Assembly (NCBI GenBank): GCA_021817945.1 | Contig: JAKAFL010000002.1 | Coordinates: 1-64,000, forward strand | Source of the DNA: a bacterium | Lineage (GTDB): Bacteria; Verrucomicrobiota; Verrucomicrobiia; Limisphaerales; UBA11358 | DNA length: 64,000 nucleotides | Reading direction: 5' to 3' | In this document: positions 37,861 to 59,857 of the stretch, piece by piece | How the letters are laid out: each line of letters starts with the position of its first letter | How positions within the stretch are numbered: the stretch's first letter is position 1 | Translations under genes and position numbers: made by a program | Notes under the pieces: model-generated | Told to the model about the DNA's origin: nothing | Database searches by the model: none | What the model saw: only the letters and a program-made list of their open reading frames with translations

Positions 37861-38071
37861 GCCAATCGGGTTCCAAAGGAATCAGGTTTCAAACACTATG
37901 CCGGGTCTTCCCATTCCATCATACGGAGGAAGGTGGTTAAGCTTTGCCCACCCAGGACGACAACCCGGCATTTTTTACCCATTCAACCGTTTAAAACGGT
38001 GAAAACAGTTGATTTTATGGGGGTTTTGCAGCGTGGCATCATCGTTGCTAAGCACTTGTGGCATTCTATAC
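37861..38071. other. Leader region of the flagellar cluster
   Basis: This gene-free stretch of 211 bp holds the sigma-54 promoter at 38034-38049. TTTAAAACGG and short A/T-rich tracts upstream (37985-38025) could form part of an activator or IHF region, but no binding site can be named. Confidence 0.5.
38034..38049 (+). promoter_or_regulatory. Sigma-54 promoter of the flgB operon
   Basis: TGGCAT-CATCG-TTGCT matches the -24/-12 consensus TGGCAC-N5-TTGCW, with the GG and GC doublets exactly 12 bp apart. The predicted start is near 38060, only about 12 nt before the flgB ATG. Confidence 0.8.
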
Positions 38072-38455
38072 ATGATCGAAGCGATATTCAATCAGCCGGG
38101 GTTTTTGGCGGCCAGCAAGGCCTTGGACGCAGTGGAACTGCGCGGGCAGGCCATTTCCAACAACCTGGCCAACCTGGAAACGCCGGGTTATCGGCGGGTG
38201 GATTTGGCACCCGGTTTCGAGGCCGCCATGAACAAGGCAATCCTCTCGCAGAACCCGCAACAGATAGCGTCGCTGAATCCCACATTGGCTGCGGATCCGA
38301 ATGCGACGGCGGTAAGCCCGGATGGCAACACGGTTCGGCTGCAGGATGAATTGACCCAGTTGAATCAGAATGGCGCGGCGCACTCATTGGAAACACAGTT
38401 AGTGGTGAGCATGTTCCAGAAACTGCAAATGGCCATCACGGGCAAGAATGCATAA
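38072..38455 (+). CDS. flgB: Flagellar basal-body rod protein FlgB
   Basis: The 127-residue protein forms the proximal rod. The conserved N-terminal rod motif is LRGQAISNNLANLETPGYRR (residues about 24-43), and the C-terminal helix is LETQLVVSMFQKLQMAIT. The start is fixed by the rod motif and the sigma-54 promoter. It is the first gene of the cluster. Confidence 0.95.
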   Translation: MIEAIFNQPGFLAASKALDAVELRGQAISNNLANLETPGYRRVDLAPGFEAAMNKAILSQNPQQIASLNPTLAADPNATAVSPDGNTVRLQDELTQLNQNGAAHSLETQLVVSMFQKLQMAITGKNA

Positions 38456-38459
38456 AGCC

Positions 38460-38888
38460 ATGATTTCGATCATACCAGGAATACAAAACACGTCTGCAGC
38501 GCTGGATGCGGAGCAGACGCGCTTGAATGTGATTGCGAAAAACATTGCCAACGCCAACACGGCTCATGGCCCCGATGGCAAGCCTTACCAGCGGCAGGTG
38601 GTGGTGTTTGACACGGCCCTGCAACAGGCCATGGGTCCCGATGGAGGGGTGCAGTTGGCACCGGTGCAGGTGGCTAAAATCGAGTCTGACAATCGCCCGG
38701 CGTTGCAGGTGTTTGACCCTGGCAACCCGGATGCGGATGCCAAAGGCATGGTTTCCATGCCCAACATTAATGTGAACGAGGAAATGGCGGATCTGATTTC
38801 CGCATCCCGATCCTACGAGGCGAACCTGGCTGCGGCCAAAAATGCGCACACGATGGCCATGGAAACCCTTTCGATAGGCAAGGCATGA
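38460..38888 (+). CDS. flgC: Flagellar basal-body rod protein FlgC
   Basis: The 142-residue rod protein has the N-terminal motif LDAEQTRLNVIAKNIANANT and the C-terminal motif INVNEEMADLISASRSYEAN. Length matches FlgC. I chose the ATG at 38460 because an in-frame ATG at 38448 would overlap flgB and add four unconserved residues. It forms the rod with FlgB, FlgF and FlgG. Confidence 0.95.
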   Translation: MISIIPGIQNTSAALDAEQTRLNVIAKNIANANTAHGPDGKPYQRQVVVFDTALQQAMGPDGGVQLAPVQVAKIESDNRPALQVFDPGNPDADAKGMVSMPNINVNEEMADLISASRSYEANLAAAKNAHTMAMETLSIGKA

Positions 38889-38932
38889 GCGTGCGACAGG
38901 ATAAAAACCCTTGGAAACCCCACTAAACCGGC

Positions 38933-39310
38933 ATGGTTCCGATCACCGCCCTGCAACCCAGCCTGCCCGGCCTTTGGTCCACCGGCAGCGGACCGCTTAC
39001 GGCGGCATCCCAAGCCGCCGGGCCGACGGCGCTTGGAGGCATTCAAATGCCTGCGGATCTGGCACAGGCAGGCGGAGTTGCCCCGGCGGGAAGCTCTTTC
39101 TCCTCGATGCTGGGCCAGTTTGTCTCGGAGGTGAACCAGCAACAGTTGGCCGCCACGCAGACCGTGAACGCCGTGCAGAGCGGCCAGAACATCCCTTTGA
39201 ATCACGCCATGATTGCCATGGAGGAGGCCAATGTGTCCTTCCAGTTGATGGTGGAAGTGCGCAATCGGCTGCTGGATTCCTACCAGGAAATCATGCGGAT
39301 GCAAGTATGA
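38933..39310 (+). CDS. fliE: Flagellar hook-basal body protein FliE
   Basis: The 125-residue protein joins the MS ring to the rod. The C-terminal half is diagnostic: FSSMLGQFVSEVNQQQLAAT, then SGQNIPLNHAMIAMEEANVS and FQLMVEVRNRLLDSYQEIMR. The first 50 residues are an Ala/Pro/Gly-rich extension longer than in E. coli FliE. Follows flgC in the usual flgB-flgC-fliE order. Confidence 0.92.
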   Translation: MVPITALQPSLPGLWSTGSGPLTAASQAAGPTALGGIQMPADLAQAGGVAPAGSSFSSMLGQFVSEVNQQQLAATQTVNAVQSGQNIPLNHAMIAMEEANVSFQLMVEVRNRLLDSYQEIMRMQV

Positions 39311-39326
39311 GAGGCTTTAATCTGGA

Positions 39327-40991
39327 ATGAACCAAAACCTGACCAAACTATTGGGGCAACTACGGGATATATGGCTGCACCTGGGCCCGACCCAGCGTTT
39401 GAACGTGGCCGCAGCCACACTGGTGGTGGTGGGAGGACTGGTGACATTGGCGCTGTGGTCCTCGCGGGTGGATTACAGCCTGCTCTATGGCGGGCTGCCG
39501 GATGGCGAGGCTGCCAAGGTGATCGCCGCGCTGGACGACGCCAAAATCCCGTACAAGACAGGCGGCAGCGGCGGATCCATCCTGGTGCCGTCAGACAAAG
39601 TGTATTCCACGCGCATGCAACTGGCTGGCCGGGGAATTCCCAATGGAGAAGGGGTGGGGTTTGAAATTTTTGACAAGGCCAACTTCGGAATTTCCGACTT
39701 TGTGCAGCGGGCCAACTACACCCGCGCAGTGGAGGGCGAGCTGGCCCGGACGATCAGCCAGATAGACGAGGTGGAATCGGCGCGGGTCATGATTGTGATG
39801 CCAGAGAACCGGCTGTTGCTGGACAAGGACACTTATCCGACCGCCTCGGTCTTTGTGCGCGTGCGCGGAAACTCGCCGCTGCAGACCCAATCCATCAATT
39901 CCATCCGTTTCCTGGTGGCCAATTCCGTGGAGGGATTGAAGCCCAACCATGTGAGCGTGGTGGACAACCTGGGCAATGTTCTCTCGGAGAACACTGATGA
40001 CGATTCCCTTACGGGGCTGACCAGCACACAACTGGCATCCCGCCGGAATCTGGAACAATACCTGGCACGCAAGGCGCAGGACATGATGGACAAGGTGGTG
40101 GGGCCGGGACAAGCCATCGTGCGCGTGGCTGCGGAAATCAACTACGACACCCTGACGCGTTCGGATGAAAAATACGATCCGGACGGGCAGGTGATCAGGA
40201 CCCAGACCAAGGACGACCAGGTGACGGATTCCTCCACCACCGCCAACTCCACGCCGACGGGCATCACGGCGAACACGCAAGTGAACACCAACGGCAGCGG
40301 TGCCGCCTCCGGACCGGTGAACACGACCCAAAACCACAACACCACCTCGACGGTGGAGTATGACGTGGGGAAGACCACGAGCAATCTTGTGGAGACGGCG
40401 GGCGGCATCAAGCGCCTGTCGGTATCCGTGAGCGTGGCGGAATTGGAGCAGGGCACTGGTGATGCGCGCAAGATGGTCCCGCGCACACCGCAGCAACTGG
40501 ACCAACTGCGAAGCATTGTTGCCGGGGCAGTGGGCATAGACACCACCCGTGGCGACACAATTGCCCTGGAGGAGCTGCCGTTCAACACGGATTTTGCGGA
40601 CGAGGTGACGCAAGACCTGAACCAGGAGCAAAAGCGTGATTTTTGGTGGGACCTGGCCCGAAATGCGGTGTATCCGCTCATGGCGGCGGGTGTCTTTTTG
40701 ATATTGCTTCGGCTCTTCAGCCGCACACCGGTGCAGGATATTCCGCTGGGAGTGCCGGTGGGGCGGTTGCTGGCCTCGCACCAGGGCAATGGCCATGCCA
40801 ACGGCAACGGCCACAGCGCGGGCAATGGCAATGGCATGGGCGGGCGGCTGTCGGATTCCATTGAAACACCGCCGGGCGTGGTGACCGTGGAGGTTTTGAA
40901 CCGGTTGATCAAGGAAAACCCAACCAACATGACACAAGCCATCCGCGACTGGATGAGCAAGGGCAGGACAGGCGAACAGAGTCAAAACTAA
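39327..40991 (+). CDS. fliF: Flagellar MS-ring protein FliF
   Basis: The 554-residue protein forms the inner-membrane MS ring. It has transmembrane helices at about residues 25-45 and 445-465 and ring-building motifs in between (ALDDAKIPYKTGGSGGSIL; NFGISDFVQRANYTRAVEGE; AEINYDTLTRSDEKYDPDGQ). The C-terminal tail (VEVLNRLIKENPTNMTQAIR) is the FliG-binding segment. A His/Asn/Gly-rich linker (GNGHANGNGHSAG) precedes it. Length is normal. Confidence 0.95.
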   Translation: MNQNLTKLLGQLRDIWLHLGPTQRLNVAAATLVVVGGLVTLALWSSRVDYSLLYGGLPDGEAAKVIAALDDAKIPYKTGGSGGSILVPSDKVYSTRMQLAGRGIPNGEGVGFEIFDKANFGISDFVQRANYTRAVEGELARTISQIDEVESARVMIVMPENRLLLDKDTYPTASVFVRVRGNSPLQTQSINSIRFLVANSVEGLKPNHVSVVDNLGNVLSENTDDDSLTGLTSTQLASRRNLEQYLARKAQDMMDKVVGPGQAIVRVAAEINYDTLTRSDEKYDPDGQVIRTQTKDDQVTDSSTTANSTPTGITANTQVNTNGSGAASGPVNTTQNHNTTSTVEYDVGKTTSNLVETAGGIKRLSVSVSVAELEQGTGDARKMVPRTPQQLDQLRSIVAGAVGIDTTRGDTIALEELPFNTDFADEVTQDLNQEQKRDFWWDLARNAVYPLMAAGVFLILLRLFSRTPVQDIPLGVPVGRLLASHQGNGHANGNGHSAGNGNGMGGRLSDSIETPPGVVTVEVLNRLIKENPTNMTQAIRDWMSKGRTGEQSQN

Positions 40992-41010
40992 CCCTCAACC
41001 CCTCAAAAAC

Positions 41011-42060
41011 ATGGCAACGGAAACACTGGAAGGAAGCGGCGTGGAATTGGGTCCGCTGACCAAGACACAGAAGCTGGCAGCCCTGCTGGTGATGCTGGGG
41101 CCGGAAAGCGCGGCGGTTATCCTGCAACAATTCCAGCCGCGCGAGGTGGAATCCATCTCCCGTGAGATGGCGCGGTTCAACCTGATCACGCGGGATCAGC
41201 AGCACCAGATTCTGGATGAATTTTCGGATGTGGCCGTGGCAGCGAGCACCTCGGTATCCGCAGGCATCGAGGCCACGCGGAACACGCTGGAACGCGCCTT
41301 TGGCAGCTTCAAGGCCAGCGACGTGCTGAGCCGTGTCACCACCACCCGCGCCCCGCTTGGAGCCATGCAATCCGTGGCGGACATGGATCCCCGCCAGCTA
41401 TTCAACCTTTTGAGAGAGGAGCATGTGCATGTCATCACGTTCATCATCAGTTATTTATCTGCGGAAAAAGCGGCGCAGGTGCTGAATCTGTTACGGAGCG
41501 AGCAGCGGGACCTGGTCTTGCAACGCCTGGCCATACTGGCGCCCACGCCAGTGGAGGTGGGGGAACGCGTGGTGGAGGTTTTGAACGCCAAGATGGGGGT
41601 GAAACAAACCCGGGCGCTGACCCAGACAGGCGGGATCACAAGCGTGGCAGACTTGTTGAACGCCATGGAAAAGAACACCAGCCGCGGATTGCTGACGCAC
41701 ATCGAGGAAAAGAATCCTGAACTCTTCCAGGCCATTCGCAAGAAGATGTTCACCTTTGAGGACCTGCTGCTGCTCGAGGCGCCGCACATTCAGCGGATCA
41801 TGAGGGAAATAGACATGAGAGACCTCACAGTGGCCCTGAAAAAATGCAGCGAACCCCTCAAGAAGACACTTTTGGCGAATATTTCCAGACGCGCTGCGGA
41901 AACGGTGCAGGAAGAAATGGCCTATCTGGGACAGGTCAAGATGCGGGACATCGAGGCGGCGCAATTCCGCATTATTGACATTGTGCGCAAGCTGGAAGCG
42001 GAGGGGGAGATAGAGCTGGAGACCAGCTCGGTATCGGATTCGGAATATGAAATGGTCTAA
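41011..42060 (+). CDS. fliG: Flagellar motor switch protein FliG
   Basis: The 349-residue C-ring protein receives torque from the stator. N-terminal domain: LTKTQKLAALLVMLGPESAA, with MARFNLI. Middle and C-terminal armadillo parts: HPQ-like ISYLSAEKAAQVLNLL, FTFEDLLLLEAPHIQRIMRE and KKTLLANISRRAAETVQEEM. The charged C-terminal helix that contacts MotA is present. Its final 14 bp overlap fliH. Confidence 0.95.
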   Translation: MATETLEGSGVELGPLTKTQKLAALLVMLGPESAAVILQQFQPREVESISREMARFNLITRDQQHQILDEFSDVAVAASTSVSAGIEATRNTLERAFGSFKASDVLSRVTTTRAPLGAMQSVADMDPRQLFNLLREEHVHVITFIISYLSAEKAAQVLNLLRSEQRDLVLQRLAILAPTPVEVGERVVEVLNAKMGVKQTRALTQTGGITSVADLLNAMEKNTSRGLLTHIEEKNPELFQAIRKKMFTFEDLLLLEAPHIQRIMREIDMRDLTVALKKCSEPLKKTLLANISRRAAETVQEEMAYLGQVKMRDIEAAQFRIIDIVRKLEAEGEIELETSSVSDSEYEMV

Positions 42061-42640
42061 GCCGCTTCTGATGCATTCCGGGTTGCGCGACGTGCGCCTG
42101 CTCACGCAGGTTCCGGCGCGGGAATGGACCGCGCACGTACGCGAGCGGGAGGATGAAGCCTACCGGCGGGGACGCCTAGAAGGGGATACGGCCTGCGGGC
42201 TAAAGCTGGAGCAGCAGCGGCAGGAGCTGGATGCGCTGCAAAACGGGGTGATGAAGAATCTGCAATCCATCCTGCCGCAAGTTCTCAAGGAAGCCGAGCC
42301 GGCGCTGATACAACTGGCGCTGGAGGCTGCACGCAAGCTGGTGGCCGGCATGCCAGTGGACGCGGCCATGGTGGAGGCAGTTGTGCGGGAGGCTCTGGCG
42401 CAGGTGGAAGATTCGGGAGAAATCACGATTCAACTCCATCCCGATGACCTGGCCCTGCTGCACAAGCACGCCTCGCCTCTGCTGGAGGCCCACGCAGGAC
42501 GAGGATCATCAGGAGCAGTCAAATTCAGCAGCTCACGGGAGGCCCAGCGCGGGGACTGCCTGGCGCTGACCCGATTTGGCACCCTGGACGCCCGGCGGGA
42601 AACCAAGCTGGAACAAATTCAAACCAGCCTCAACCTGTGA
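42047..42640 (+). CDS. fliH: Flagellar export apparatus protein FliH
   Basis: The 197-residue protein regulates the FliI ATPase. It has an N-terminal basic region, a coiled coil (about residues 40-75, DEAYRRGRLEGDTACGLKLE) and the C-terminal FliH/SctL domain (ALEAARKLVAGMPVDAAMVE, GEITIQLHPDDLALL). The start overlaps the end of fliG by 14 bp and its stop overlaps the GTG of fliI. Confidence 0.88.
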   Translation: MKWSKPLLMHSGLRDVRLLTQVPAREWTAHVREREDEAYRRGRLEGDTACGLKLEQQRQELDALQNGVMKNLQSILPQVLKEAEPALIQLALEAARKLVAGMPVDAAMVEAVVREALAQVEDSGEITIQLHPDDLALLHKHASPLLEAHAGRGSSGAVKFSSSREAQRGDCLALTRFGTLDARRETKLEQIQTSLNL

Positions 42641-44001
42641 ACCCCCAAATTCCATGCACACTTGACCGCCTGCAAAAGGCCGCCCGCCGGGTTCGGGACG
42701 CCCGGATGACGGAATCTTTCGGGAGAGTGGTGCAACTGATTGGGTTGGTGATTGAATCCGAGGGTCCGGCTGCAGCGATGGGCGAGGTTTGCCGGATTGA
42801 ATCCAACCGTCATGACGGAGTGACGCTGGCTGAGGTGGTGGGATTTCGCAACGAACATCTGCTTTTAATGCCACTGGGGGACCTGCACGGGATTCATCCA
42901 GGCAGCGTGGTGACCGCCACGGGTCATCCGCTGAGAGTGGGGGTGGGTGACGCCTTGCTGGGGCGGGTGCTGGATGGACTTGGCCAGCCAATGGACGGAC
43001 GGGGACCGACCTTCACAGACCATGAGGCGGGGTTGAACATGCCTCCACCTCATCCACTAAAAAGGCTGCGAATCCAACAAACCTTCCGCACGGGAATCAA
43101 AGCTCTGGACACCTTCACCCCCTGCGGACGGGGACAACGCATGGGCATCTTCGCGGGGAGCGGGGTTGGCAAGTCCACATTGCTGGGGATGATGGCGGCC
43201 AAATCCGAGGCGGACGTGAATGTGATTGCCCTGATTGGGGAACGGGGCCGGGAGGTGCGGGAGTTTCTGGACCACGATCTGGACGAGGAGGGACGGCGCA
43301 AATCCGTGGTGGTGGTGGCAACCTCCAATGAACCCGCGCTAAAGCGGGTCAAAGGCGCGTTCCTGGCCATGGCCATAGCGGAGCATTTTCGCGACGCCGG
43401 GCGCAACGTGCTTTTAATGATGGACTCCGTGACGCGGTTTGCGATGGCACAGAGGGAAATAGGTTTGGCAACAGGCGAACCTCCCACCACGCGTGGATAT
43501 ACCCCATCGGTTTTTTCCCTTCTGCCGCAGCTTTTGGAGCGAGCCGGAGCCGGGGAAACGGGCACCATCACGGGACTTTTCACCGTTCTGGTGGAGGCGG
43601 ACGACATGAACGACCCCATAGCCGATGCGGTGCGGTCCATCCTGGACGGCCACATCATCATGAACCGGGAGCTGGCCACCCAGAACCATTACCCGGCAGT
43701 GGACGTGCTGGAAAGCGTCAGCCGGCTCAACCGTGACCTCCTGACTGCGGACCAGTTGAAACTGACCGGGAGCGCGCGGGAACACATGGCCGTTTACCGC
43801 CGGAACCAGGACCTGATCAACATTGGGGCCTATCCAACTGGGACCAATGCCGCCATAGACCAGGCGATTCATCTGCGCGAGCCATTGGTGCGGTTTTTGC
43901 GGCAAAAAGTGGATGAAGGCTTTTCGTTGTCCGAGAGCTGGTCGCTGCTGGCAGGGACTTTGAGCACACCCATGCCCACGCGAGGCAAGGCCGCGCCATG
44001 A
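42637..44001 (+). CDS. fliI: Flagellum-specific ATPase FliI
   Basis: This 454-residue hexameric ATPase energises type III flagellar export. It starts at GTG 42637, overlapping the fliH stop. Walker A is GIFAGSGVGKSTLLGM near residue 170, followed by IGERGREVREF, and the Walker B region contains VLLMMDSVTRFAMAQREIGL. The C-terminal export domain is complete and ends with LAGTLSTPMPTRGKAAP. Length is normal. Confidence 0.95.
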   Translation: MNPQIPCTLDRLQKAARRVRDARMTESFGRVVQLIGLVIESEGPAAAMGEVCRIESNRHDGVTLAEVVGFRNEHLLLMPLGDLHGIHPGSVVTATGHPLRVGVGDALLGRVLDGLGQPMDGRGPTFTDHEAGLNMPPPHPLKRLRIQQTFRTGIKALDTFTPCGRGQRMGIFAGSGVGKSTLLGMMAAKSEADVNVIALIGERGREVREFLDHDLDEEGRRKSVVVVATSNEPALKRVKGAFLAMAIAEHFRDAGRNVLLMMDSVTRFAMAQREIGLATGEPPTTRGYTPSVFSLLPQLLERAGAGETGTITGLFTVLVEADDMNDPIADAVRSILDGHIIMNRELATQNHYPAVDVLESVSRLNRDLLTADQLKLTGSAREHMAVYRRNQDLINIGAYPTGTNAAIDQAIHLREPLVRFLRQKVDEGFSLSESWSLLAGTLSTPMPTRGKAAP

Positions 44002-44489
44002 AAGCCCACCGTTTTTCATTGGAATCCGTCCGGACACTGCGCCAGCAGCGAGAGCAGCAGGCCCGGCAACGCTACGCGCGGTCGCTGGAAGCGATCCGCA
44101 AAGCGGAGGCGCGGACGCGCGCGTCGGAGCTGGAGTGGGAAAACGCATTAAAAAACCTGGAGCAATCCGCTGCAGATGGCATGGCTGCGGGGCCCTATGC
44201 CCAGGCACGCACAGGATGCCTGGTTCTGGAGATCCGATGGCGCGACCAAAGGGCCTCATTGATGGAATCTCGCAGGGTGGCAGGGTTGTTATTGCAGGAA
44301 CTCACGCTTGCAACCCAGCAGCGCGAGAGCCTGGACCAATTGGAACGCCGGGCACGCAGACAGCACGCGTTCATGGTCCGAAGAGAGGAACAAAACCAAT
44401 TGGATGAACTGGCCACCCAACGCAATGCCGGCCAGCCTGGATTGACCGGCTGGCCGAGGCGCCTTTCATCCCAACCCACGCCATCATGA
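43998..44489 (+). CDS. fliJ: Flagellar export chaperone-escort FliJ
   Basis: The 163-residue protein is almost all alpha-helical coiled coil (SLESVRTLRQQREQQARQRY; LLLQELTLATQQRESLDQLE), as in FliJ, which links FliI to the FlhA gate. Identification rests on this and on position between fliI and a MotE-like gene; FliJ sequences are poorly conserved. ATGA overlaps with both neighbours. Confidence 0.82.
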   Translation: MKAHRFSLESVRTLRQQREQQARQRYARSLEAIRKAEARTRASELEWENALKNLEQSAADGMAAGPYAQARTGCLVLEIRWRDQRASLMESRRVAGLLLQELTLATQQRESLDQLERRARRQHAFMVRREEQNQLDELATQRNAGQPGLTGWPRRLSSQPTPS

Positions 44490-45085
44490 TGCGTTTTATT
44501 CAATCTCCTGGTTTTGCCGCCCTGCTCGGGGGCATCCTTTATCTGGCCACCACGGCCGCCATCCTGAATCCGTCTCATTTTGCCGGAATCAAGCCGCCTC
44601 CGCCGGACTATTCGGCAGATGACGATCCCTCCTGGAAATTTCGAAACCCGGAGCTGGACCAATGGCTGAGCCAGATCAAGAGCCAGCGGGAACAACTGGA
44701 CCTGCGCCAGCAACAATTGGATGAATGGCAGACGCGTTTGAACGAGCAAATGATGGAAATATCCGCCGCCACGCAGGCGGTAAGCCAATTACAAGCCACC
44801 TTCAACCAAAATGTGGTGCGCCTGAGCGCGGATGAAGCCGTCAACCTCAAACGCCAGACCAAGATGCTGTCAGACATGTCGCCGGAAGGCGCGGTTGCCA
44901 TCCTGAGCCAGATGCAGGATGACGAGGTGGTGCGCCTGATTTTCACCATGAAGGATGACGTGGCCAGCCAGATTTTGGATGCGTGGAGCAAGCAGGGGGA
45001 AGCCCAAGCCAAACGGGTGGCGGACATTACTGAGCGCCTTCGCGTGGTCACTGCGGCTGCGGCGCCGAAACCCCAAACACCCTAA
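44486..45085 (+). CDS. motE: MotE-like flagellar protein (MgtE N-domain fold)
   Basis: The 199-residue protein has one N-terminal transmembrane helix (GFAALLGGILYLATTAA), a coiled coil (about residues 60-110, KSQREQLDLRQQQLDEWQTR) and a C-terminal MgtE-N-like domain (MLSDMSPEGAVAILSQMQDD, then VVRLIFTMKDDVASQILDAW). This matches MotE, a chaperone for the periplasmic stator protein MotC in alphaproteobacteria and common elsewhere between fliJ and fliK. Here no MotC is seen, so its partner is unknown. Confidence 0.75.
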   Translation: MMRFIQSPGFAALLGGILYLATTAAILNPSHFAGIKPPPPDYSADDDPSWKFRNPELDQWLSQIKSQREQLDLRQQQLDEWQTRLNEQMMEISAATQAVSQLQATFNQNVVRLSADEAVNLKRQTKMLSDMSPEGAVAILSQMQDDEVVRLIFTMKDDVASQILDAWSKQGEAQAKRVADITERLRVVTAAAAPKPQTP

Positions 45086-45097
45086 CCCGGCCCACCC

Positions 45098-51667: not shown

Positions 51668-52432
51668 ATGGAAGCCGATTTTGACACATGGATGCTGGTT
51701 TTCTTGAGGGTGGGAGCCTTCCTGCTGGTGTTGCCGTTTTTCTCGATGAATGAAATGCCCGTCCTGCTGCGGGTATCCCTGGCTGCCCTCATTTCGCTAC
51801 TTCTCACTCCCGTGGTGGCACCCCATCCCTTGGGCCAACTGGATTACGCCGCCACCCTGGGATTGATGATGCAGGAGGTGGGGATTGGCTTGCTGCTTGG
51901 GTTTCTATCCCGCCTGATTTTTTTTGCGGCAGAACTGGCTGGCTCCATCATCGCCTTTGAAATGGGCTTGAACCTGGCCTCCGTGTTTGACCCCATGACG
52001 CAGCAGGCCTCGCCCATAGCGGGCACTCTTTTGATGTACTTGAGCATGCTGGTCATGCTGAGCTTGAACCTGCACGACTGGATGCTGCTGGGTTTTGCCC
52101 GCACCTATGATTTGCTGCCCATAGGCGGCGGCCATTTCAACCGCCAGCTCCTGGCCGAAGTGGTGCCCCAGACATCCAGGGTTTTCATGACCGCCCTGCA
52201 AATCTCCACGCCGGTGATTGCCGCGTCCTTTGTCATCACCATGATCTTTGCCGTCCTGAGCCGGGCAGTGCCGCAAATGAATGTTTTCACGGAAATGTAC
52301 GGGTTCAAAATCGTGGGGTCACTGGTGGTTCTGGGATTCTCGCTGCAACTGGCGGCGCAATACGTGGCGCAATTTTTTAATGCATTGCCGGAGGACCTGC
52401 TGGTGGTGGCCAAAATGATTGGAGGAGGCTGA
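51668..52432 (+). CDS. fliR: Flagellar export gate protein FliR
   Basis: The 254-residue membrane protein has six to seven hydrophobic segments. Conserved parts include FLRVGAFLLVLPFFSMNEMP, GIGLLLGFLSRLIFFAAELA and the FDPMTQQASP loop. It forms the gate with FliP and FliQ and contacts FlhB, whose gene follows after 3 bp. Confidence 0.94.
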   Translation: MEADFDTWMLVFLRVGAFLLVLPFFSMNEMPVLLRVSLAALISLLLTPVVAPHPLGQLDYAATLGLMMQEVGIGLLLGFLSRLIFFAAELAGSIIAFEMGLNLASVFDPMTQQASPIAGTLLMYLSMLVMLSLNLHDWMLLGFARTYDLLPIGGGHFNRQLLAEVVPQTSRVFMTALQISTPVIAASFVITMIFAVLSRAVPQMNVFTEMYGFKIVGSLVVLGFSLQLAAQYVAQFFNALPEDLLVVAKMIGGG

Positions 52433-52435
52433 CCC

Positions 52436-53518
52436 ATGGCTGAATCCACAGGCGAAAAGACAGAGGCACCGACACAGCGCAAGCTGGAGGATGCCATCAG
52501 CAAGGGCCAGATTCCGCACAGCGATGAAGTGCAAACCGTGTTTGTCCTGATGGGGGCATTTGCGGCGATGACCTTTGCAGGGCGGGAAATCTGGCAGCAA
52601 CTGGTGGTCTCCACCACTTTTTCCCTGGGGCACCTGCACGATACTCCCATTAATTCCGATTCCCTGCAGGCGTACAGCATCACCGGGCTTATGGTGGTGA
52701 TGAAAATAACCGCGCCGTTTGTGGTGGCCACTGCGCTTTCGGGCCTCCTGGCGGGGGCCATCCAGAACCGGTTCAACACGGCCCCGGAAGTCCTGGCACC
52801 GGATTGGAACCGCATCAATCCGGTGGAAGGTTTTGGCCGGCTCTTCTCCGGGCGCATGGTGGTGCCCACCCTGGTGGGTTTGGTGAAGTTTGCCTTCGTC
52901 CTGGCTATCACCGCCTCGGAAATCCAGCGCCTGCTCAATGATCCCATCTTCACCTCCGCAGTGAGCGGCGCCCGGTTGGCGGAATTCCTGGGAGAAACCA
53001 CGTTGCGTGTGCTCCTGCGCATCAGCCTCGGGCTGATTCTGATCGCCGCTGCGGATTACGCCTATCAATTCTGGCGCAACCAACGCGACTTGATGATGAC
53101 CAAGCAGGAGTTGAAGGATGAGATGAAAAATTCGGAGGGCAGCCAATTGATCAAAAACGCCCGCCGCCGCCGCCGTGCCGTGAGCAAGGCCAAGGCCCTG
53201 GCTGAGGTTCCCAAGGCGGATGTCATCGTCACCAATCCCACGCGCATTGCCATTGCCCTGCGTTACGACCGAAAAGCCATGCGGGCACCTAAAATTGTGG
53301 CCAAAGGAATACGGCTCAACGCCAAAAAAATCAGGGAGATTGCCGAGCAGCACCAGATTCCCATTGTGGAAAATAAACCCCTGGCCCAAATGCTTTTCAA
53401 ACATGGGCGAGTGGGTGGCGAGATTCCTGCTGAATTCTACGCGGCAGTGGCGGAAATTTTGGCCTGGGTGTACCGGGTGAACCGGTACCGCTATTTCTCG
53501 GAACAAAATCAGGTGTGA
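52436..53518 (+). CDS. flhB: Flagellar export switch protein FlhB (NPTR variant)
   Basis: The 360-residue protein has an N-terminal SGEKTEAPTQRKLEDAISKG, four transmembrane helices and a cytoplasmic domain. The autocleavage motif, NPTH in most FlhB proteins, reads NPTR (VIVTNPTRIAIALRYD, near residue 265). The Asn-Pro cleavage bond is kept. The rest of the domain (APKIVAKGIRLNAKKIREIA; VENKPLAQMLF) is normal. Works with FliK in the rod/hook-to-filament switch. Confidence 0.95.
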   Translation: MAESTGEKTEAPTQRKLEDAISKGQIPHSDEVQTVFVLMGAFAAMTFAGREIWQQLVVSTTFSLGHLHDTPINSDSLQAYSITGLMVVMKITAPFVVATALSGLLAGAIQNRFNTAPEVLAPDWNRINPVEGFGRLFSGRMVVPTLVGLVKFAFVLAITASEIQRLLNDPIFTSAVSGARLAEFLGETTLRVLLRISLGLILIAAADYAYQFWRNQRDLMMTKQELKDEMKNSEGSQLIKNARRRRRAVSKAKALAEVPKADVIVTNPTRIAIALRYDRKAMRAPKIVAKGIRLNAKKIREIAEQHQIPIVENKPLAQMLFKHGRVGGEIPAEFYAAVAEILAWVYRVNRYRYFSEQNQV

Positions 53519-53525
53519 AAAGATC

Positions 53526-55643
53526 ATGGGATTTTTAAGCGACAAACTTCGCAACTTGTTGCGCCACGGAGACTTGTGGCTTATTGCAGCATTGTTTGGC
53601 ACTATTCTGCTGTTGGTATTACCCGTGCCCCCGCTCTTGCTGGACCTGCTTCTGGCATCAAGCATCAGCATTTCCCTGCTCACCTTGTTGGTCATCCTTT
53701 ACCTCCGCACTCCGGCAGAATTTACCGGGTTCCCCACACTGTTATTGTTTATCACCTTGTACCGTTTGTCGCTGAACGTGGCCTCCACCCGGCTGATCTT
53801 ATTAAACGGGTACGCGGGCCATATCATCCAGTCCTTTGGTAATTTTGTGGTGCAGGGGAATTACGTGGTGGGGATGGTGATATTCCTGATTTTGGTGTTG
53901 ATCAACTTCATAGTGATCACCAAGGGTGCCGGGCGCATCGCAGAAGTGGCGGCGCGGTTCACCCTGGATGCCTTGCCTGGCAAGCAAATGGCGATTGATG
54001 CGGAACTGAATGCGGGGTTGATCAAGGAGGGCGAGGCGCGAAGTCGGCGGCGGTCCTTGGAAGATGAGGCTGATTTTTATGGGTCCATGGATGGTGCCAG
54101 CAAATTTGTGCGCGGGGATGCCATTGCGGCGGTGCTGATCACCCTGATCAACGTGATTGGTGGATTTGCGATTGGGATTGCGCAAAAGGGGATGACCGTG
54201 ACAGAGGCTTTGCAACATTACACCATCTTGTCCATAGGGGACGGACTGGTATCCCAGGTGCCGGCGCTGATTACCTCCACCGCTGCGGGCATCTTGATCA
54301 CCCGGGCGACCGCTAAAAACGACTTGGGGCGGGAATTGGGTCGGCAGCTTTTATTTTATCCCAAGGCTCTCACCATTCTGTCCCTGATGCTGGGGGTGAT
54401 GGCATTGGTGCCGGGTTTGCCCACGCTGCCCTTTTTAATCCTGGCTGTGCTTACGGGTCTTTTATCCTATTCCATTCACCGCCATGGCACGCCTGAATTG
54501 AACCAGACCCCTGCCACGGCGGGGGCGTCTGCCCGGAATGCGGATGGCAAGGCGTCGGCGGCAGGGTCTGCCCCGGAGCCGAAGCCTCCTGAGAAAATAG
54601 AAAACCTGCTTACACTGGACACGTTGCAAATTGAGTTGGGACATGGCCTGGTGCCTCTGGCCGACACGCGCAAGGGGGGTGATTTGCTGGAGCGGGTCAC
54701 AGGAGTGCGAAAAAATTTTGCCACGGAAATGGGGGTGTTGATTCCGCCCATTCGGCTGCGCGACAACCTGCAATTGGGGCCTAATGAGTATCGTTTTCTG
54801 CTCAAGGGAAATCCCCTGGCCCAGGGCCAGTTGATGCCCAACCATTGGCTGGCCATGAATGCCACCCACAGCAAGTCCACCTTGAAAGGCATGCCGACCA
54901 TTGAACCGGTTTTTCAATTGCCCGCCACATGGATTGCCGCCATGGAACGAAAAAACGCCGAGGTGGCGGGTTACACGGTGGTGGATGCGCCCTCGGTGCT
55001 GGTGACCCACCTGTCTGAGATGGTCAAACGGCATTGTCACGAGATACTGACGCGCCAGGATGTCCAAGCCCTGCTGGATCATCTCAAGCAAACGCATCCT
55101 GCCGTGGTGAATGAATTGGTGCCAAACCTTCTCAGCATGGGACAAATCCAGCGCATCCTGCAAAACCTGCTTGCAGAGGGTATTTCCATACGGAATCTGG
55201 CCGGCATCCTGGAAAAGGTGGGAGACCAGGCTGCCTTCACCAAAAATCCGGATGAACTCTCAGAGCACGCCCGTCGAGCCTTGGGTTCACAACTGACCAA
55301 GCCCTTTCAGACTGACAATGGCGGAATCCGCGTCATCACCATAGATCCCAAGCTGGAACAGCAATTGACCCAGAGCGTGCGCCAGTCTCCCACGGAGATG
55401 GCGCTGGTGATTGAACCCAAGCTGGCACGACATGTGATCGAGGCCCTGACGCGGCTGGTGCAACAAATGCTGGCTGCAGGGCTGCAGCCCGTGGTTTTGT
55501 GTTCGCCCCAGTTGCGGCTGGCCTTCCGCCGGTTTTTTGAACATTCCTTCAACAACCTCGCGGTTTTATCGTACGCCGAAATCCCCTCGCGGATTCAGAT
55601 CCAAAATGCGGCAGTCATTCCAAACCTGGTTGAAAGCGCGTGA
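53526..55643 (+). CDS. flhA: Flagellar export gate protein FlhA
   Basis: The 705-residue protein has eight N-terminal transmembrane helices with the FHIPEP signature region (LLLFITLYRLSLNVASTRLI; GRIAEVAARFTLDALPGKQM AID; GEARSRRRSLEDEADFYGSM DGASKFVRGD). The C-terminal cytoplasmic nonamer domain starts near residue 340 and ends normally (VLSYAEIPSRIQIQNAAVIP). Its stop overlaps the flhF GTG. Confidence 0.96.
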   Translation: MGFLSDKLRNLLRHGDLWLIAALFGTILLLVLPVPPLLLDLLLASSISISLLTLLVILYLRTPAEFTGFPTLLLFITLYRLSLNVASTRLILLNGYAGHIIQSFGNFVVQGNYVVGMVIFLILVLINFIVITKGAGRIAEVAARFTLDALPGKQMAIDAELNAGLIKEGEARSRRRSLEDEADFYGSMDGASKFVRGDAIAAVLITLINVIGGFAIGIAQKGMTVTEALQHYTILSIGDGLVSQVPALITSTAAGILITRATAKNDLGRELGRQLLFYPKALTILSLMLGVMALVPGLPTLPFLILAVLTGLLSYSIHRHGTPELNQTPATAGASARNADGKASAAGSAPEPKPPEKIENLLTLDTLQIELGHGLVPLADTRKGGDLLERVTGVRKNFATEMGVLIPPIRLRDNLQLGPNEYRFLLKGNPLAQGQLMPNHWLAMNATHSKSTLKGMPTIEPVFQLPATWIAAMERKNAEVAGYTVVDAPSVLVTHLSEMVKRHCHEILTRQDVQALLDHLKQTHPAVVNELVPNLLSMGQIQRILQNLLAEGISIRNLAGILEKVGDQAAFTKNPDELSEHARRALGSQLTKPFQTDNGGIRVITIDPKLEQQLTQSVRQSPTEMALVIEPKLARHVIEALTRLVQQMLAAGLQPVVLCSPQLRLAFRRFFEHSFNNLAVLSYAEIPSRIQIQNAAVIPNLVESA

Positions 55644-56632
55644 AGTTACTGGCATTTGAAGCAACCGACGCCGCCACCGCACTCACCCGTGTCCACGCCG
55701 AGCTGGGCCCGGAAGCGGTGGTGGTCAATGTGCGCAGACTGCCTCCCTCGGGCCTTGAACGGCTTTGGAAACGGCATGGAAATATCGAGGTGACGGCCTG
55801 TGTGCCGGACCAGGCGGAACCCCCGGCGCAGGAATCCGCGCCGAGGCCCCTCACCCCAAGCGATGAAAACGATCCGCCACCCAAAGGACGATGGCGGTCC
55901 ATACAATGGCTGGAAAGCAAGGGATTGCTGGCGGAATTTGCCAGCCAACTGGATGAAAAAGTCCGCATTTTGCATGGTGATAGACCGCCGGAAACCCTTG
56001 AAAAGGAATGGAACTGCGTCACGGACCTTGTGGTTTGCCATTGGCGAACACCGCCAAAATGGTCCATGCCCGATCCACGCCCCCACGTCTTGGTGGGGCC
56101 ACCCGGGGCAGGAAAAAGCACAGCCCTTTGCAAATGGATGGTCCAAAGCATACTCGTTCAAGAAAAGACCGTTCAAATCTGGCGACTGGATGGTGCCACG
56201 GCGAACGCCTCGGAAATCCTCCAGTTGCACTGTGAATCCCTGGGGGTGCCCACGTTCCGGTTCTGGCACACTCCTGATCTGCAGGCCGACTTGTTGATGG
56301 TGGACCTGCCGGGGGTGGAAATTCATGACACACGGTCGTTGGCTGCTTTGCAGAAACAATTGCAGGCTTTGCCCAATCCGCACATTCATTTGGTGCTCAA
56401 CGCCGCCTTGGAGACTTCCATCCTGCAGGATCAGTATCGTTTTTTCAAGCAACTCAACCCTGAAGACATGGTATTCACCCATCTTGATGAAGAGCGGCAG
56501 CGTGTGAAGCTATGGAATTTTGTATTGGGAACCGAATGCCCCATCCGCTTTCTGGGAACCGGGCAAAAAATTCCGGGTGACCTGCAGGTCGCTGAGCCAT
56601 TTCTCCTTTTTCCACAGCCTCCTCGCTGTTAA
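55640..56632 (+). CDS. flhF: FlhF-like SRP-type GTPase
   Basis: The 330-residue protein starts at GTG 55640. It has a short N-terminal B-type domain (KLLAFEATDAATALTRVHAE, where FlhF proteins have a similar 'YxAxxxxEAL' opening) and an NG-type GTPase domain: G1 HVLVGPPGAGKSTALCKWM (near residue 150) and G3-like LLMVDLPGVE (typical FlhF/Ffh: DTAG). G4-like FTHLDEERQ stands in place of TKLD. FlhF sets flagellar site and number. The altered G3 and G4 motifs suggest changed nucleotide handling. Position directly after flhA supports FlhF. Confidence 0.75.
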   Translation: MKLLAFEATDAATALTRVHAELGPEAVVVNVRRLPPSGLERLWKRHGNIEVTACVPDQAEPPAQESAPRPLTPSDENDPPPKGRWRSIQWLESKGLLAEFASQLDEKVRILHGDRPPETLEKEWNCVTDLVVCHWRTPPKWSMPDPRPHVLVGPPGAGKSTALCKWMVQSILVQEKTVQIWRLDGATANASEILQLHCESLGVPTFRFWHTPDLQADLLMVDLPGVEIHDTRSLAALQKQLQALPNPHIHLVLNAALETSILQDQYRFFKQLNPEDMVFTHLDEERQRVKLWNFVLGTECPIRFLGTGQKIPGDLQVAEPFLLFPQPPRC

Positions 56633-56703: not shown

Positions 56704-56946
56704 ATGAAGTCTCACATGATTTTAGGGGCCGTTCTTGGATTTTTGGTAGGAGCCGGATTTAGTCTGTCCCAGGAATGCTCATGGGCCACGGCGTTATGTC
56801 GAGGATGCGTGGCAGCCTTGGTGGCGGCCCTTTTGGCTCGCTGGTGGAGCAGGGTTTGGATTCAAAGCCTTGGCGAGGCCATCCGCCAGAAACGTCAGGC
56901 CCCGTCAAACGTCGGAGTCAAAAACAAAGCCTTGATTAAGACATGA
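56704..56946 (+). CDS. Small membrane protein of unknown function (orf80)
   Basis: The 80-residue protein has two hydrophobic segments, ILGAVLGFLVGAGFSLS (residues 6-22) and ATALCRGCVAALVAALLARW (28-47), followed by a basic, probably cytoplasmic tail ending NKALIKT. I recognise no family. It is the first gene of the sigma-54 operon and overlaps fliA by ATGA. It occupies the place where flhG is usually found after flhF. A role in motor or flagellar number control is possible but purely contextual. Confidence 0.7.
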   Translation: MKSHMILGAVLGFLVGAGFSLSQECSWATALCRGCVAALVAALLARWWSRVWIQSLGEAIRQKRQAPSNVGVKNKALIKT

Positions 56947-57794
56947 CCAAACGCGCAGGCGACCTGAAAGAACCCGCCTCGGTTGTGACCGTGCCAACTC
57001 CCAATGCCCAGGAGTTGTGGCAGCGTTATCACCACCAAGTGGATGACCACGCGGAGAACGAGCTGGTGATCCAGTATTTGCCGCTGGTGGCCTCGACGCT
57101 GGCCCGGCTGTCCATCACGCTGCCGGAGCATGTGGACCGGGATGATTTAAACAGTGCCGGGCTTATGGGATTGCTGCAGGCGCTGAGGAATTTTGATCCT
57201 TCCAGCGGCAGTCCCTTTGAGGCTTATGCAAGGCTGAGGGTGCGCGGAGCCATGCTGGATGAACTGCGGCGCATGGACTGGATGCCAAGGTCCGTCCATG
57301 AGAAAGCCCGAAAGGTTCAGCAGGCGATGGCGCAAGTGGAACAAGTCCAGGGAAAACTGGCTGAGGACGACCAGGTGGCATTCGAACTGGGAATTTCTGT
57401 GGTCGCATACCACAGGCTGTTGGATGAAATACGACCTGCGGCCTTTCTTTGCCTGGACGCGGTCAATGCCACGGAGGACGGCGAGGGAGGCAACCTCCAT
57501 GAAGTGGTGGCAAACACTGCGGCCGCCAACCCGGTGGACCAGGCATCCGACCAGGAACTTTCCAGAATCATCCTGGACCATCTCAAAAAAATGCCTGAAA
57601 CGCAACGCAAGGTGCTGGCTTTTTATTATCTCGAGGACATGAACCTGCGAGAAATCGCGGAAGTCATGCACCTGACCGAATCGCGGGTTTGCCAGATTCA
57701 CGCCCAGGCCATCCTATCCATGCAGGCCCACGTCAGGCGGCTTGAACAGGGCTCCTTCAGACAGTCCAGCCTGAGTCTTCACGCCCAGCCATGA
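56943..57794 (+). CDS. fliA: Flagellar sigma factor FliA (sigma-28)
   Basis: The 283-residue sigma factor has region 2 (LPLVASTLARLSITLPEHVD; LNSAGLMGLLQALRNFDPSS; YARLRVRGAMLDELRRMDWM PRSV), region 3 and region 4 with the helix-turn-helix MNLREIAEVMHLTESRVCQI. This matches sigma-28 of late flagellar genes. It is transcribed from a sigma-54 promoter, giving a two-tier hierarchy. Its stop overlaps motA. Confidence 0.95.
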   Translation: MTKRAGDLKEPASVVTVPTPNAQELWQRYHHQVDDHAENELVIQYLPLVASTLARLSITLPEHVDRDDLNSAGLMGLLQALRNFDPSSGSPFEAYARLRVRGAMLDELRRMDWMPRSVHEKARKVQQAMAQVEQVQGKLAEDDQVAFELGISVVAYHRLLDEIRPAAFLCLDAVNATEDGEGGNLHEVVANTAAANPVDQASDQELSRIILDHLKKMPETQRKVLAFYYLEDMNLREIAEVMHLTESRVCQIHAQAILSMQAHVRRLEQGSFRQSSLSLHAQP

Positions 57795-58648
57795 TTACCA
57801 TCATTGGAGCCTTGGTGGTGGTGTTTTGCGTTTTTGGCGGGTTCGTCTTTGGCGGGGGCCACCTGAAAGTGCTGGTGCACCCCAACGAACTGTTAATCAT
57901 TGGCGGCGGAGCCTTGGGCGCATTGATCATCATGTCTCCCTTCAAGGTTCTAAAGGAGATCGTTTCGGGGGTGATTTTGTGCCTGAAAGGCGCTCCTTAC
58001 AACCGTTCCTCCTACGAGGAACTCCTCAAAGTGATGTATGAACTTTTCATGCTGGGCAGGCGCAGCGGGATGATTGCACTGGAGGAACACGTTCTGGACC
58101 CGCAGAAAAGCTCGATTTTCAAAAAATACCCTTCATTCATGGCGAATCATCACGCGGTGGAATTCCTTTGCGGCGGTTTGCGCCCAATCATTGATGGAAA
58201 AATAAAACCCGACCAATTGCGGCTTCTTTTGGATGCGGAAATGGACCAGTTGGAGGTGGAGCATCATGCGCCCGTGGATGTGCTGACGCGCACAGCGGAC
58301 GCCATGCCGGGGTTTGGCATCGTGGCGGCGGTCCTGGGGATCATCATCACCATGGCATCCATCTCCGGTCCCGTGGAGGAGATCGGGGTGGAGGTGGCGG
58401 CGGCGTTGGTGGGAACTTTTCTGGGCATCCTGCTGGCCTATGGTTTTTTGAGTCCCCTGGCACTAAACCTGCAATTCGTGAAGTCCGCCGAGATGGATTA
58501 CACCAAATGCATCGCTGCATGTGTCACGGGATTTGCCGGCGGCATGGCGCCGATCACTGCCGTGGAGCTGGGCCGCCGCGGCCTGAGCAGCGAGCTGCGT
58601 CCCAGCGCCGACGAAATGGAAGCCCTTCTTAAATCCATCAAAAACTAG
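57791..58648 (+). CDS. motA: Flagellar motor stator protein MotA
   Basis: The 285-residue protein has four transmembrane helices (IIGALVVVFCVFGGFVFGGG; FGIVAAVLGIIITMASI; VAAALVGTFLGILLAYGFLS). The conserved segment DAMPGFGIVAAVLGIIITMA and the cytoplasmic charged loop (YEELLKVMYELFMLGRRSGM) interact with FliG. It is the proton-channel stator subunit; ATGA overlap with fliA. Confidence 0.94.
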   Translation: MITIIGALVVVFCVFGGFVFGGGHLKVLVHPNELLIIGGGALGALIIMSPFKVLKEIVSGVILCLKGAPYNRSSYEELLKVMYELFMLGRRSGMIALEEHVLDPQKSSIFKKYPSFMANHHAVEFLCGGLRPIIDGKIKPDQLRLLLDAEMDQLEVEHHAPVDVLTRTADAMPGFGIVAAVLGIIITMASISGPVEEIGVEVAAALVGTFLGILLAYGFLSPLALNLQFVKSAEMDYTKCIAACVTGFAGGMAPITAVELGRRGLSSELRPSADEMEALLKSIKN

Positions 58649-58657
58649 CGCTTTCGA

Positions 58658-59446
58658 TTGAAAAAAGGCAATAAACACGCGCATCATGGCGGTTCCTGGA
58701 AAGTGGCCTATGCCGACTTTGTCACGGCCATGATGGCGTTGTTTCTCTGCCTCTGGCTGGCTTCGCAGGATGTTAAAATCAAGGAAGCGGTCGAACGCGC
58801 CTTTCGCAATCCGTTCTCCAGCGTCACCAAGGAATCCGTGGGTCTCATCCCCAACAAGGACATGTCCGCCACTTTCCAGCAACAGGGCCATTTTCAGTCC
58901 GTTTCCGCAGTGGAAATGGAAACGATGCGACACCTGAGCGAGGACCTCAGCAAATTGCTCCGCCAAAACGAGGATGTCACCACCATTCGCATTGCCCTCA
59001 CTCCAGAGGGTTTGAACATTGACATATTCGACAAGGCGCAGAAACCCATTTTCCAACCGGGCACTCCCACGTTCACGGACTACGGTTCCTGGGTGTTCAG
59101 CACATTGGCTTGGGAAATTTCGCGTTACCCCACGTTTCATGTGGAGATTGAGGGTCACACAGAATCCAAAACCGACCCGGGAACGCAGGAGCACGACAAA
59201 TGGGACCTCTCCACCGAGCGGGCCAATGCCGCCCGCCGCATCCTCACTGACAGCGGGGTGGCCGACCGACAGGTTTTCAAGGTGTCCGGCTTTGCAGACA
59301 CCGCCCCCATGGCCGGCTACCCCCCGGATGCTGAAATCAACCGCCGGGTTACAGTCCTGTTAAAGTTAAAGGAATCGGTGGATGCCCTGTCGGACCAAAA
59401 CGAGGCCGCCAATTCATCCCCAAACGCCACAACAACCCCTCAATGA
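58658..59446 (+). CDS. motB: Flagellar motor stator protein MotB
   Basis: The 262-residue protein starts at TTG 58658. It has the short cytoplasmic basic N-terminus, a single transmembrane helix with the proton-carrying aspartate (VAYADFVTAMMALFLCLWLA, Asp at residue 20) and a periplasmic OmpA-like domain (VEIEGHTESKT...LSTERANAARRILTDSGV, near 165-205) that binds peptidoglycan. The Asp and the flanking residues indicate a proton-type stator. Confidence 0.93.
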   Translation: MKKGNKHAHHGGSWKVAYADFVTAMMALFLCLWLASQDVKIKEAVERAFRNPFSSVTKESVGLIPNKDMSATFQQQGHFQSVSAVEMETMRHLSEDLSKLLRQNEDVTTIRIALTPEGLNIDIFDKAQKPIFQPGTPTFTDYGSWVFSTLAWEISRYPTFHVEIEGHTESKTDPGTQEHDKWDLSTERANAARRILTDSGVADRQVFKVSGFADTAPMAGYPPDAEINRRVTVLLKLKESVDALSDQNEAANSSPNATTTPQ

Positions 59447-59736
59447 GCTTTTCAAAAACTGAGTCCTTTGTCCCGCTGGTATCAGGCCTGGCAGGCGGGA
59501 AAAACCGTGAATTCAAGGTAACGGTGGTCCCCCAGTCCGCCGATACCAAATCATTTAACCCCATTTCTGCGACTGCAGAAAAAGCAGTCTCAAACTTCGG
59601 CACCCCGGGCAGATGCGAACCCAAGGTAATTCTGGAACGGGATGGAGACCGGATCAGCAGCATTCGGGTGCAGTGCAGTTGCGGGCAGGTATTGGACCTG
59701 GCCTGCATTTATGATGATTTGCCCAAGCCAAAATAA
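59443..59736 (+). CDS. Small protein with a CxC motif, function unknown (orf97)
   Basis: The 97-residue product starts SFSKTESFVPLVSGLAGGKN, has a Ser/Thr-rich middle and ends with a short beta-like domain: ILERDGDRISSIRVQCSCGQ, then VLDLACIYDDLPKPK. The cysteines (C-S-C plus a later C) might bind a metal, but nothing else supports that. No transmembrane segment or signal is visible. ATGA overlap with motB shows tight coupling to the stator genes. I recognise no family. Confidence 0.7.
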   Translation: MSFSKTESFVPLVSGLAGGKNREFKVTVVPQSADTKSFNPISATAEKAVSNFGTPGRCEPKVILERDGDRISSIRVQCSCGQVLDLACIYDDLPKPK

Positions 59737-59841
59737 AGCGACGACTCACACCCGGCCATTTCTTCCACGCAAACCGGCATCTTTTGCCCTGCCATTGTGA
59801 AATTGAGGAGGTTTTGGGCTGAAATTGCTTTAAATTCAGCA

Positions 59842-59857
59842 TGGCACACACGTTGCT
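59842..59857 (+). promoter_or_regulatory. Sigma-54 promoter of the flgF operon
   Basis: TGGCAC-ACACG-TTGCT is a perfect -24/-12 match. The start is predicted near 59868, five nucleotides before the flgF ATG, giving an almost leaderless mRNA. Confidence 0.85.

Follow-up and report, generated by a model that had tools for sequence, protein, structure and literature searches.

The stretch of DNA analysed here, 64,000 nucleotides (nt) of a verrucomicrobial contig (C68:1-64000 of a 3.76-Mb assembly) and referred to throughout as the window, carries a flagellar gene cluster, and the elements in question are the sigma-54-type (-24/-12) promoter boxes associated with it. On the basis of Pfam matches, from which the gene identities were assigned, the cluster is arranged as three operons:

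38072..56632, forward strand: operon 1, flgB to flhF
56704..59736, forward strand: operon 2, an open reading frame (ORF) of 80 amino acids (aa; orf80 below), fliA, motA, motB and an ORF of 97 aa
59873..64000, forward strand: operon 3, from flgF, extending beyond the window to csrA

The gene order in operon 1 is flgB, flgC, fliE, fliF, fliG, fliH, fliI, fliJ and a gene for an MgtE_N protein, followed by fliK, flgD, flgE, fliL, fliM, fliN, fliO, fliP, fliQ, fliR, flhB, flhA and flhF. Operon 3 includes flgF, flgG, flgA and flgH inside the window, with flgI, a rod-binding protein gene, flgN, flgK, flgL, fliW and csrA beyond it; fliS, fliD and flagellin come next, on the opposite strand. The first-pass annotation had described a cluster of 26 kb. 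Its placement of the operon starts stands, but the cluster in fact runs past the window to csrA, at contig position 68264. A -24/-12 box precedes each operon:

38034-38049, forward strand: sigma-54 box before flgB, TGGCATCATCGTTGCT; present in 45/45 loci in view
56671-56686, forward strand: sigma-54 box before orf80 and fliA, TGGCAAATTTTTTGCT, of a purine type (TGGCAA); 26/31 loci
59842-59857, forward strand: sigma-54 box before flgF, TGGCACACACGTTGCT; 48/49 loci

The sequences, strand, spacing and positions of these boxes were checked in the window and are as first annotated. The largest other intergenic gap in the cluster, from gene coordinates, is about 45 nt, and this tight packing of the genes between the boxes implies that the three boxes mark the visible operon starts. 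The earlier proposal that boxes lie exactly at the sole operon boundaries holds for these three, but not for a fourth conserved box, which lies inside fliK.

Counting pattern matches within the window was uninformative as evidence: with up to one mismatch there are 11 matches against 8.83 expected, and 24/100 shuffles reach 11, so such counts prove little by themselves. Genome-wide, the exact pattern occurs 17 times and the reversed control 6 times. A matrix built out of sample from 109 boxes of relatives, with the window and the same-genus L116 excluded, ranks the flgB, orf80-fliA and flgF boxes 1, 3 and 4 of the 127,970 positions scanned, the fourth box (46243) being rank 2. These ranks vary with the training set because the orf80 boxes are a distinct type: when flgB and flgF boxes alone are used, 56671 drops to rank 11, and when orf80 boxes alone are used, 59842 is found at rank 21 and 38034 at rank 44. 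At the sixth base of the -24 element, 26/26 orf80 boxes have a purine, and 45/45 flgB and 42/42 flgF boxes a pyrimidine (orf80 against the 87 flgB and flgF boxes, Fisher 4e-26, ancestry ignored). One possible reading of the purine-type box is a weaker or later fliA promoter.

The scan of related genomes proposed in the first-pass annotation found the boxes retained in the proportions listed above. The DNA flanking them is poorly conserved in relatives, as judged from logos of sets thinned at 75% identity, and the control genes in relatives have no nearby box (fliP 0/49, fliM 0/38, fliL 0/31). For flgB, matches below 60 bits (including L118 and L142) were left out, as were two loci with too little upstream sequence, one of which, L141, does show a box; L136 gave no match. 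For flgF, matches below 75 bits were left out along with L022 and L036, which are flgE by place and low identity, and starts were reassigned from flgG paralogues in six loci (L165, L169, L171, L172, L173 and L174). The sole miss among the 49 flgF genes is L164. With regard to orf80, the box is 95 nt upstream in L019, and the nearest 45 nt contain no box in L083, L087, L091 or L094. By this sequence comparison, the three boxes are real and not the product of chance. The first-pass annotation had drawn the same conclusion from the three-for-three match of site and operon start; it is borne out by the relatives, although that match was insufficient evidence alone.

In other lineages (L019-L098), extra sigma-54 boxes are present at fliO (14/34), flhB (7/59) and flhA (7/72), several of them with a close in-frame start and a dyad, which suggests that promoters come and go within the flagellar cluster. 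On the stretches L044, L048, L052, L055, L058 and L065, flhA is the sole window flagellar gene matched. The flhA contigs L032, L038, L040, L044, L056 and L071 are titled Akkermansia muciniphila in their records, which looks doubtful; A. muciniphila is a non-motile species.

The fourth box lies within a coding sequence, and three features have to be considered together:

45098..46918, forward strand: fliK, 606 aa, named from its position and the fold of its C-terminal region
46243..46258, forward strand: fourth sigma-54 box, within the fliK coding sequence; rank 2 in the matrix scan, with an ATG at 17 nt in 28/33 loci
46274..46918, forward strand: predicted separate product FliK-C, 214 aa, in the fliK frame, with a putative export-switch fold (from sequence and model)

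FliK as a whole has no Pfam match. The 33 loci counted, window included, were those with 600 nt or more of sequence preceding the flgD match, and 28 of them contain GGCA-N7-TGC-N16-ATG in the fliK frame, with the ATG exactly 17 nt past the C of the -12 element (-12 C). In L070 and L073 the box is followed instead by an in-frame GTG, at 14 nt; L069 and L091 are without the site, and the contig of L062 is too short. A weaker box, starting CGGCAC, is found in three of the 28 (L061, L066 and L067). The density of the pattern is 0.549 per kb in these frames against 0.0034 elsewhere on both strands, where it occurs 9 times in 2.65 Mb, one occurrence being the window's flgF site. The search fixed GGCA, TGC and ATG and left the remaining bases free; among these, the alanine codon is GCT in 28/28 loci, where the codon usage of each fliK would predict 5.0, and the base preceding GG is T in 23/28, against 4.9 expected. 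The residues between the box and the ATG vary freely and are not conserved. Judged by its codons, the fliK box is under selection at the level of the DNA.

The ORF from the internal ATG encodes 192-270 aa in 27/28 loci and 550 in L094. The model of FliK-C has a core of a helix, three strands, a helix and a short strand, with a predicted local distance difference test score of about 90, and disordered flanks. Its top two structural matches, in a search that gave none at E 0.001 or better, are 2RRL (the FliK C-terminal domain, E 1.9e-3) and 5CUK (a PscP domain, E 4.6e-3), the latter with a template-modelling score of 0.70 by target. The Flg_hook profile matches 20/27 FliK-C members at E <=0.1, the best at 2.1e-8; the window member scores 15.8 bits against a cut-off of 29.8. 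On the evidence of the model, the fold of FliK-C is that of the FliK C-terminal core. The internal start is hence predicted to yield the FliK export-switch domain alone, without the ruler. In one study of Salmonella, over-expression of an export-deficient FliK without residues 2-99 still allowed export to be switched (PMC6972891), which means that a separately made switch domain could act; by analogy, it may do so in this organism.

An explanation that does not involve a second protein is that the fliK box does act as a promoter, but serves just flgD, flgE and the genes downstream of them, no FliK-C being made or relevant. The genes behind the box do include hook genes, and in L091 a box is found about 100 nt upstream of the flgD match rather than in fliK. 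A promoter alone, however, needs no start codon at a fixed distance, yet an ATG stands at 17 nt in 28 of the 30 boxed loci, and the other two have the in-frame GTG at 14 nt, with unconserved residues between. This explanation is consequently regarded as rather unlikely.

A second conserved element, the dyad GGCAA-N3-TTGCC, is found upstream of the boxes:

37967..37979, unstranded: dyad GGCATTTTTTACC upstream of flgB; 13.8 bits against a 95% null of 7.34, centred 61 nt upstream of the box
56562..56574, unstranded: dyad GGCAAAAAATTCC inside the flhF 3' end; 16.3 bits, codon choice selected in relatives
59776..59788, unstranded: dyad GGCATCTTTTGCC upstream of flgF; 16.3 bits
59754..59766, unstranded: second, weaker dyad GGCCATTTCTTCC upstream of flgF; 12.8 bits

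An unbiased count of 5-bp dyads with gaps of 0-13 in the 200 nt upstream, using sets thinned at 70% identity, returned GGCAA-N3-TTGCC as the top dyad at flgB (24/43) and, separately, at flgF (23/42); 20 shuffles gave at most 7 for any dyad. A matrix trained on the flgB and flgF regions themselves scores above the 95% null at 39/43 flgB and 39/42 flgF loci, and at 23/24 orf80 loci, which were unused in training. At flgB the centre of the dyad falls in most cases 59-65 nt ahead of the box, and a second copy frequently lies 32-34 bp further; the orf80 dyad is mostly about 104 nt before the box, with a weaker one near 138. Such distances are typical of enhancers. Genome-wide, the exact boxes other than those of flgB and flgF have no upstream dyad above 7.4 bits, and a strict dyad-plus-box pattern finds flgF only, since the flgB and orf80 dyads deviate from the strict form.

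The orf80 dyads are located in the end of flhF, where codon choice can be examined. In 25 of the 26 boxed loci (L038, without the motif, was left out), the glycine codon of the motif is GGG in 25/25, and the glutamine and asparagine codons are CAA or AAT in 40/44 cases, against 14.4 expected from each gene's own usage. Of seven loci scored as unboxed, five have GGC or GGA for this glycine; the two with GGG, L019 and L057, have a box further off. This bias indicates that it is the DNA, and not the protein alone, that is conserved there. According to a study of Desulfovibrio regulons, the conservation of coding regions precluded predicting such sites (PMC4641369); the flhF case suggests that enhancers inside coding DNA may be detectable through codon choice.

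A dyad of this kind could be the site of an NtrC-type activator, of which the genome encodes eight of full length. The favoured one, belonging to the L099 group, is a 484-aa protein encoded on a different contig from the window (C75:13090-14541), with a receiver domain, an AAA+ domain with GAFTGA and a Fis-type helix-turn-helix. When the activator repertoire was compared with those of ten other genomes, several of which have just three or four activators, the L099 group was found in 8/9 flagellates, the ninth being cut by a contig end, and in 0/2 same-genus genomes without FliF. Order-wide occurrence was counted in 116 genomes for two of the eight activators; the L099 group is present in 47/50 genomes with FliF and 8/66 without (p 2e-20, ancestry ignored). 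In the class, 18 genomes with flgF match the activator at E 4.1e-122 or better, and in 17 chosen genomes without flgF the matches are 1.7e-106 or weaker. Outside the class there is a trend with no clear gap: seven genomes with a close flgF box match at 6e-104 to 4e-121, and four others at 2.5e-101 to 2e-92. In nine genomes the activator gene shares the strand of fliF and precedes it by at most 3 kb.

Of the named families, the L099-group activator scores 400.5 of 750 against FlbD and 313.3 of 750 against FlgR, below both curated cut-offs. Four activators, of two groups, adjoin flhA in the loci of relatives. Upstream of the activator gene in the window genome and in G060 (L290:5823-7708 and L291:3048-5479) are a TPR protein and a small ORF (146 and 142 aa), and no histidine kinase was found among the scanned neighbours of the activator gene. 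On contig C29 (L106/L005), an activator with GAFTDA instead of GAFTGA is encoded shortly before an exact sigma-54 box.

We infer from this co-occurrence that the L099-group activator binds the dyad, which would name the likely flagellar activator for a phylum that, to our knowledge, has little genetics. It is improbable, given the data, that the dyad is instead bound by another regulator and that the co-occurring activator acts via other DNA or none. Across flagellates of two orders the dyad and the activator are distributed alike; the dyad stands at an enhancer-typical distance; and nine genomes have the activator gene next to the cluster. In favour of another regulator, it is co-occurrence that connects the activator with the dyad, the window's fliK box is without a dyad, and some activators function without a DNA site, as described for FlgR of Helicobacter (PMC3930126).

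The boxes are also found very close to start codons, which are backed by protein alignments beginning at the first residue. In the window, the -12 C is 24 nt from the ATG of flgB (38072), 19 from that of orf80 (56704) and 17 from that of flgF (59873). In relatives, the distance to the A of the start codon is 13-34 nt for flgB and 17-39 nt for orf80; for flgF it is 13-19 nt in 45/48 boxed loci, and exactly 16 in 18/42. Outside the class, the true flgF starts are at 13-14 nt in L171, L172 and L174 and at 46-47 nt in L165, L169 and L173. Transcription from sigma-54 promoters begins approximately 12 nt past the -12 C. Because the boxes are so close to the start codons, this rule predicts very short leaders: 12 nt for flgB, 7 for orf80, 5 for flgF and 5 for FliK-C in the window, and 1-22, 5-27 and 1-7 nt for flgB, orf80 and flgF, respectively, in relatives. 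Shine-Dalgarno-like 4-mers at the boxed genes are near the level of chance (flgB 4/45, orf80 4/26, flgF 7/42). Four flgF genes lack a box nearby, too small a number to test; GGAG (L164, L165 and L169) or GGAA (L173) precedes their starts. These mRNAs are thus predicted, from sequence, to be leaderless or nearly so.

Flagellin contrasts with these genes, in that a sigma-28-like site, TCAAGTCT-N11-GCCGATAT, begins 163 nt before its ATG. The site fits the role that the first-pass annotation assigned to FliA, that of a lower tier.

Were the boxes functional, with transcription nevertheless starting elsewhere or reading through, the leaders would be ordinary and the distance to the ATG meaningless. 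The three flgF genes outside the class with boxes at 46-47 nt, two of which have a Shine-Dalgarno-like motif, might be understood in this way. The narrow range at the great majority of flgF genes, the fixed 17 nt in fliK and the near-chance frequency of Shine-Dalgarno-like motifs argue for short leaders, and make such an arrangement a poor prospect. It is highly improbable that the fliK stretch is a protein motif (G-T/I-x-x-A-x5-M) with no promoter: it is in frame in 28/28 loci, but its invariant GCT and preferred T are not explained by a protein whose neighbouring residues are variable. Equally hard to credit is the response-regulator activator encoded within the window (31566-32933) as the driver of the three operons, a candidate that was rejected, since despite lying about 5 kb upstream of flgB it tracks flagella poorly, with orthologues in 34/50 genomes with FliF and 28/66 without (p 0.008), and is absent from G011 and G098, whose flgB genes are boxed (L126 and L128).

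The explanation that probably accounts for these observations is an RpoN flagellar regulon under a single NtrC-type activator, with short leaders and a promoter internal to fliK. The activator would bind GGCAA-N3-TTGCC, frequently as a pair spaced about 33 bp, some 60-105 nt ahead of the box, and from there open the sigma-54 polymerase. Transcription would begin between a few and about 27 nt before the AUG, and translation would proceed without a Shine-Dalgarno sequence. The promoter inside fliK, with its own in-frame ATG, would provide a transcript for the export-switch domain, flgD, flgE and the genes behind, and FliA, made from the second promoter, would then drive flagellin. The control of the cluster by RpoN proposed in the first-pass annotation is supported by the boxes, the single rpoN match in the genome (E 1.3e-59), the dyad and the co-occurring activator, RpoN dependence itself being what these would imply. 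Overlooked at that stage were the fliK promoter, the short distance to the start codon, the dyad and the fact that the in-window activator is an unlikely regulator.

Several observations weigh against this explanation. The counts and Fisher values ignore shared ancestry, the dyad matrix was trained on two of the three sets to which it was applied, and in the orf80 regions, where the upstream DNA is coding, other dyads ranked above GGCAA-N3-TTGCC. The window's fliK box has no dyad within 250 nt (best 3.0 bits); in several other lineages one is found about 105-120 nt upstream of the fliK site. None of the eight genomes that have the activator and lack FliF has FlhA, so they are true exceptions, while G078 and G087 have FliF without an L099-group activator. 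Activator groups L100 and L106 are also flagellate-only in the sample, although in just 3/9 and 2/9. Finally, the flgF box is distant in three loci outside the class, and with flgB distances reaching 34 nt and those of orf80 39 nt, 'leaderless' in the strict sense suits flgF and fliK better.

A broader proposal may be advanced tentatively, as plausible but somewhat doubtful: that fliK in the Verrucomicrobia is two genes in one frame, that timed synthesis of the switch domain sets or sharpens the hook-to-filament switch from the cytoplasm, and that the sigma-54 flagellar regulon is leaderless. If so, the switch domain could be produced separately from the ruler, hook-to-filament switching would depend on transcription as well as on the ruler, and a promoter-on-start-codon module at the flagellar operons would make a sigma-54 regulon open to control by the ribosome. 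Selection over several orders for a fliK-internal promoter that carries its own start codon would change how this switch is viewed.

Some further genes in the region can be noted. The protein encoded between fliJ and fliK (44486-45085) matches MgtE_N in Pfam and falls below the cut-off for the FlbB flagellar collar protein in NCBIfam (55.4 of 110 bits). The small ORFs of operon 2 (56704-56946, 80 aa, and 59443-59736, 97 aa) are without a Pfam or NCBIfam match and adjoin fliA, motA and motB in many relatives. In L110 (9375-15551), a protein of 2058 aa, containing methyltransferase and several glycosyltransferase domains, is encoded behind csrA and an epimerase gene; a role in flagellin glycosylation would be a guess.

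The control of flagella by sigma-54 is well known. In the hierarchies of Vibrio (FlrC), Pseudomonas (FleQ/FleR), Caulobacter (FlbD-ftr) and Helicobacter and Campylobacter (FlgR), as predicted here, RpoN and an NtrC-family activator serve the rod and hook genes. Several RpoN hierarchies likewise use FliA for late genes, and FlbD acts at ftr DNA elements (PMC3930126, PMC7064773 and PMC3096577). The present system differs from these in that sigma-54 boxes precede even fliA and the export, switch and stator genes, and in that the boxes abut start codons, one of them inside fliK; its putative activator scores far below the cut-offs for both FlbD and FlgR. In a study of computed sigma-54 regulons that includes Opitutia, flgB occurs 0 times in the main text, and the portion of the paper available to us makes no mention of the dyad, the activator, the leaders or a promoter internal to fliK (PMC12316311). 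Nor was any report of a sigma-54 promoter inside fliK found in the open-access literature, as far as its texts were accessible.

Comparison can also be made with two systems outside the RpoN hierarchies. Leaderless mRNAs, described in PMC10783764 as having a leader of <8 nt and no Shine-Dalgarno sequence, resemble those predicted here, where the flgB leader would be 12 nt, and the same source reports some Verrucomicrobia to be scarce in Shine-Dalgarno sequences. What differs is that in this case the predicted short leaders go with sigma-54 boxes that keep a nearly constant distance to the start codon within one regulon, which offers a natural setting for testing leaderless translation where the sigma factor strictly depends on an activator. 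The export-switch domains of FliK/SctP proteins (Salmonella FliK-C and Pseudomonas PscP) are the best structural matches of the FliK-C model, the difference being that a second start inside fliK would here give the switch domain without the ruler. The more surprising part of the system is the box-start geometry together with the promoter inside fliK.

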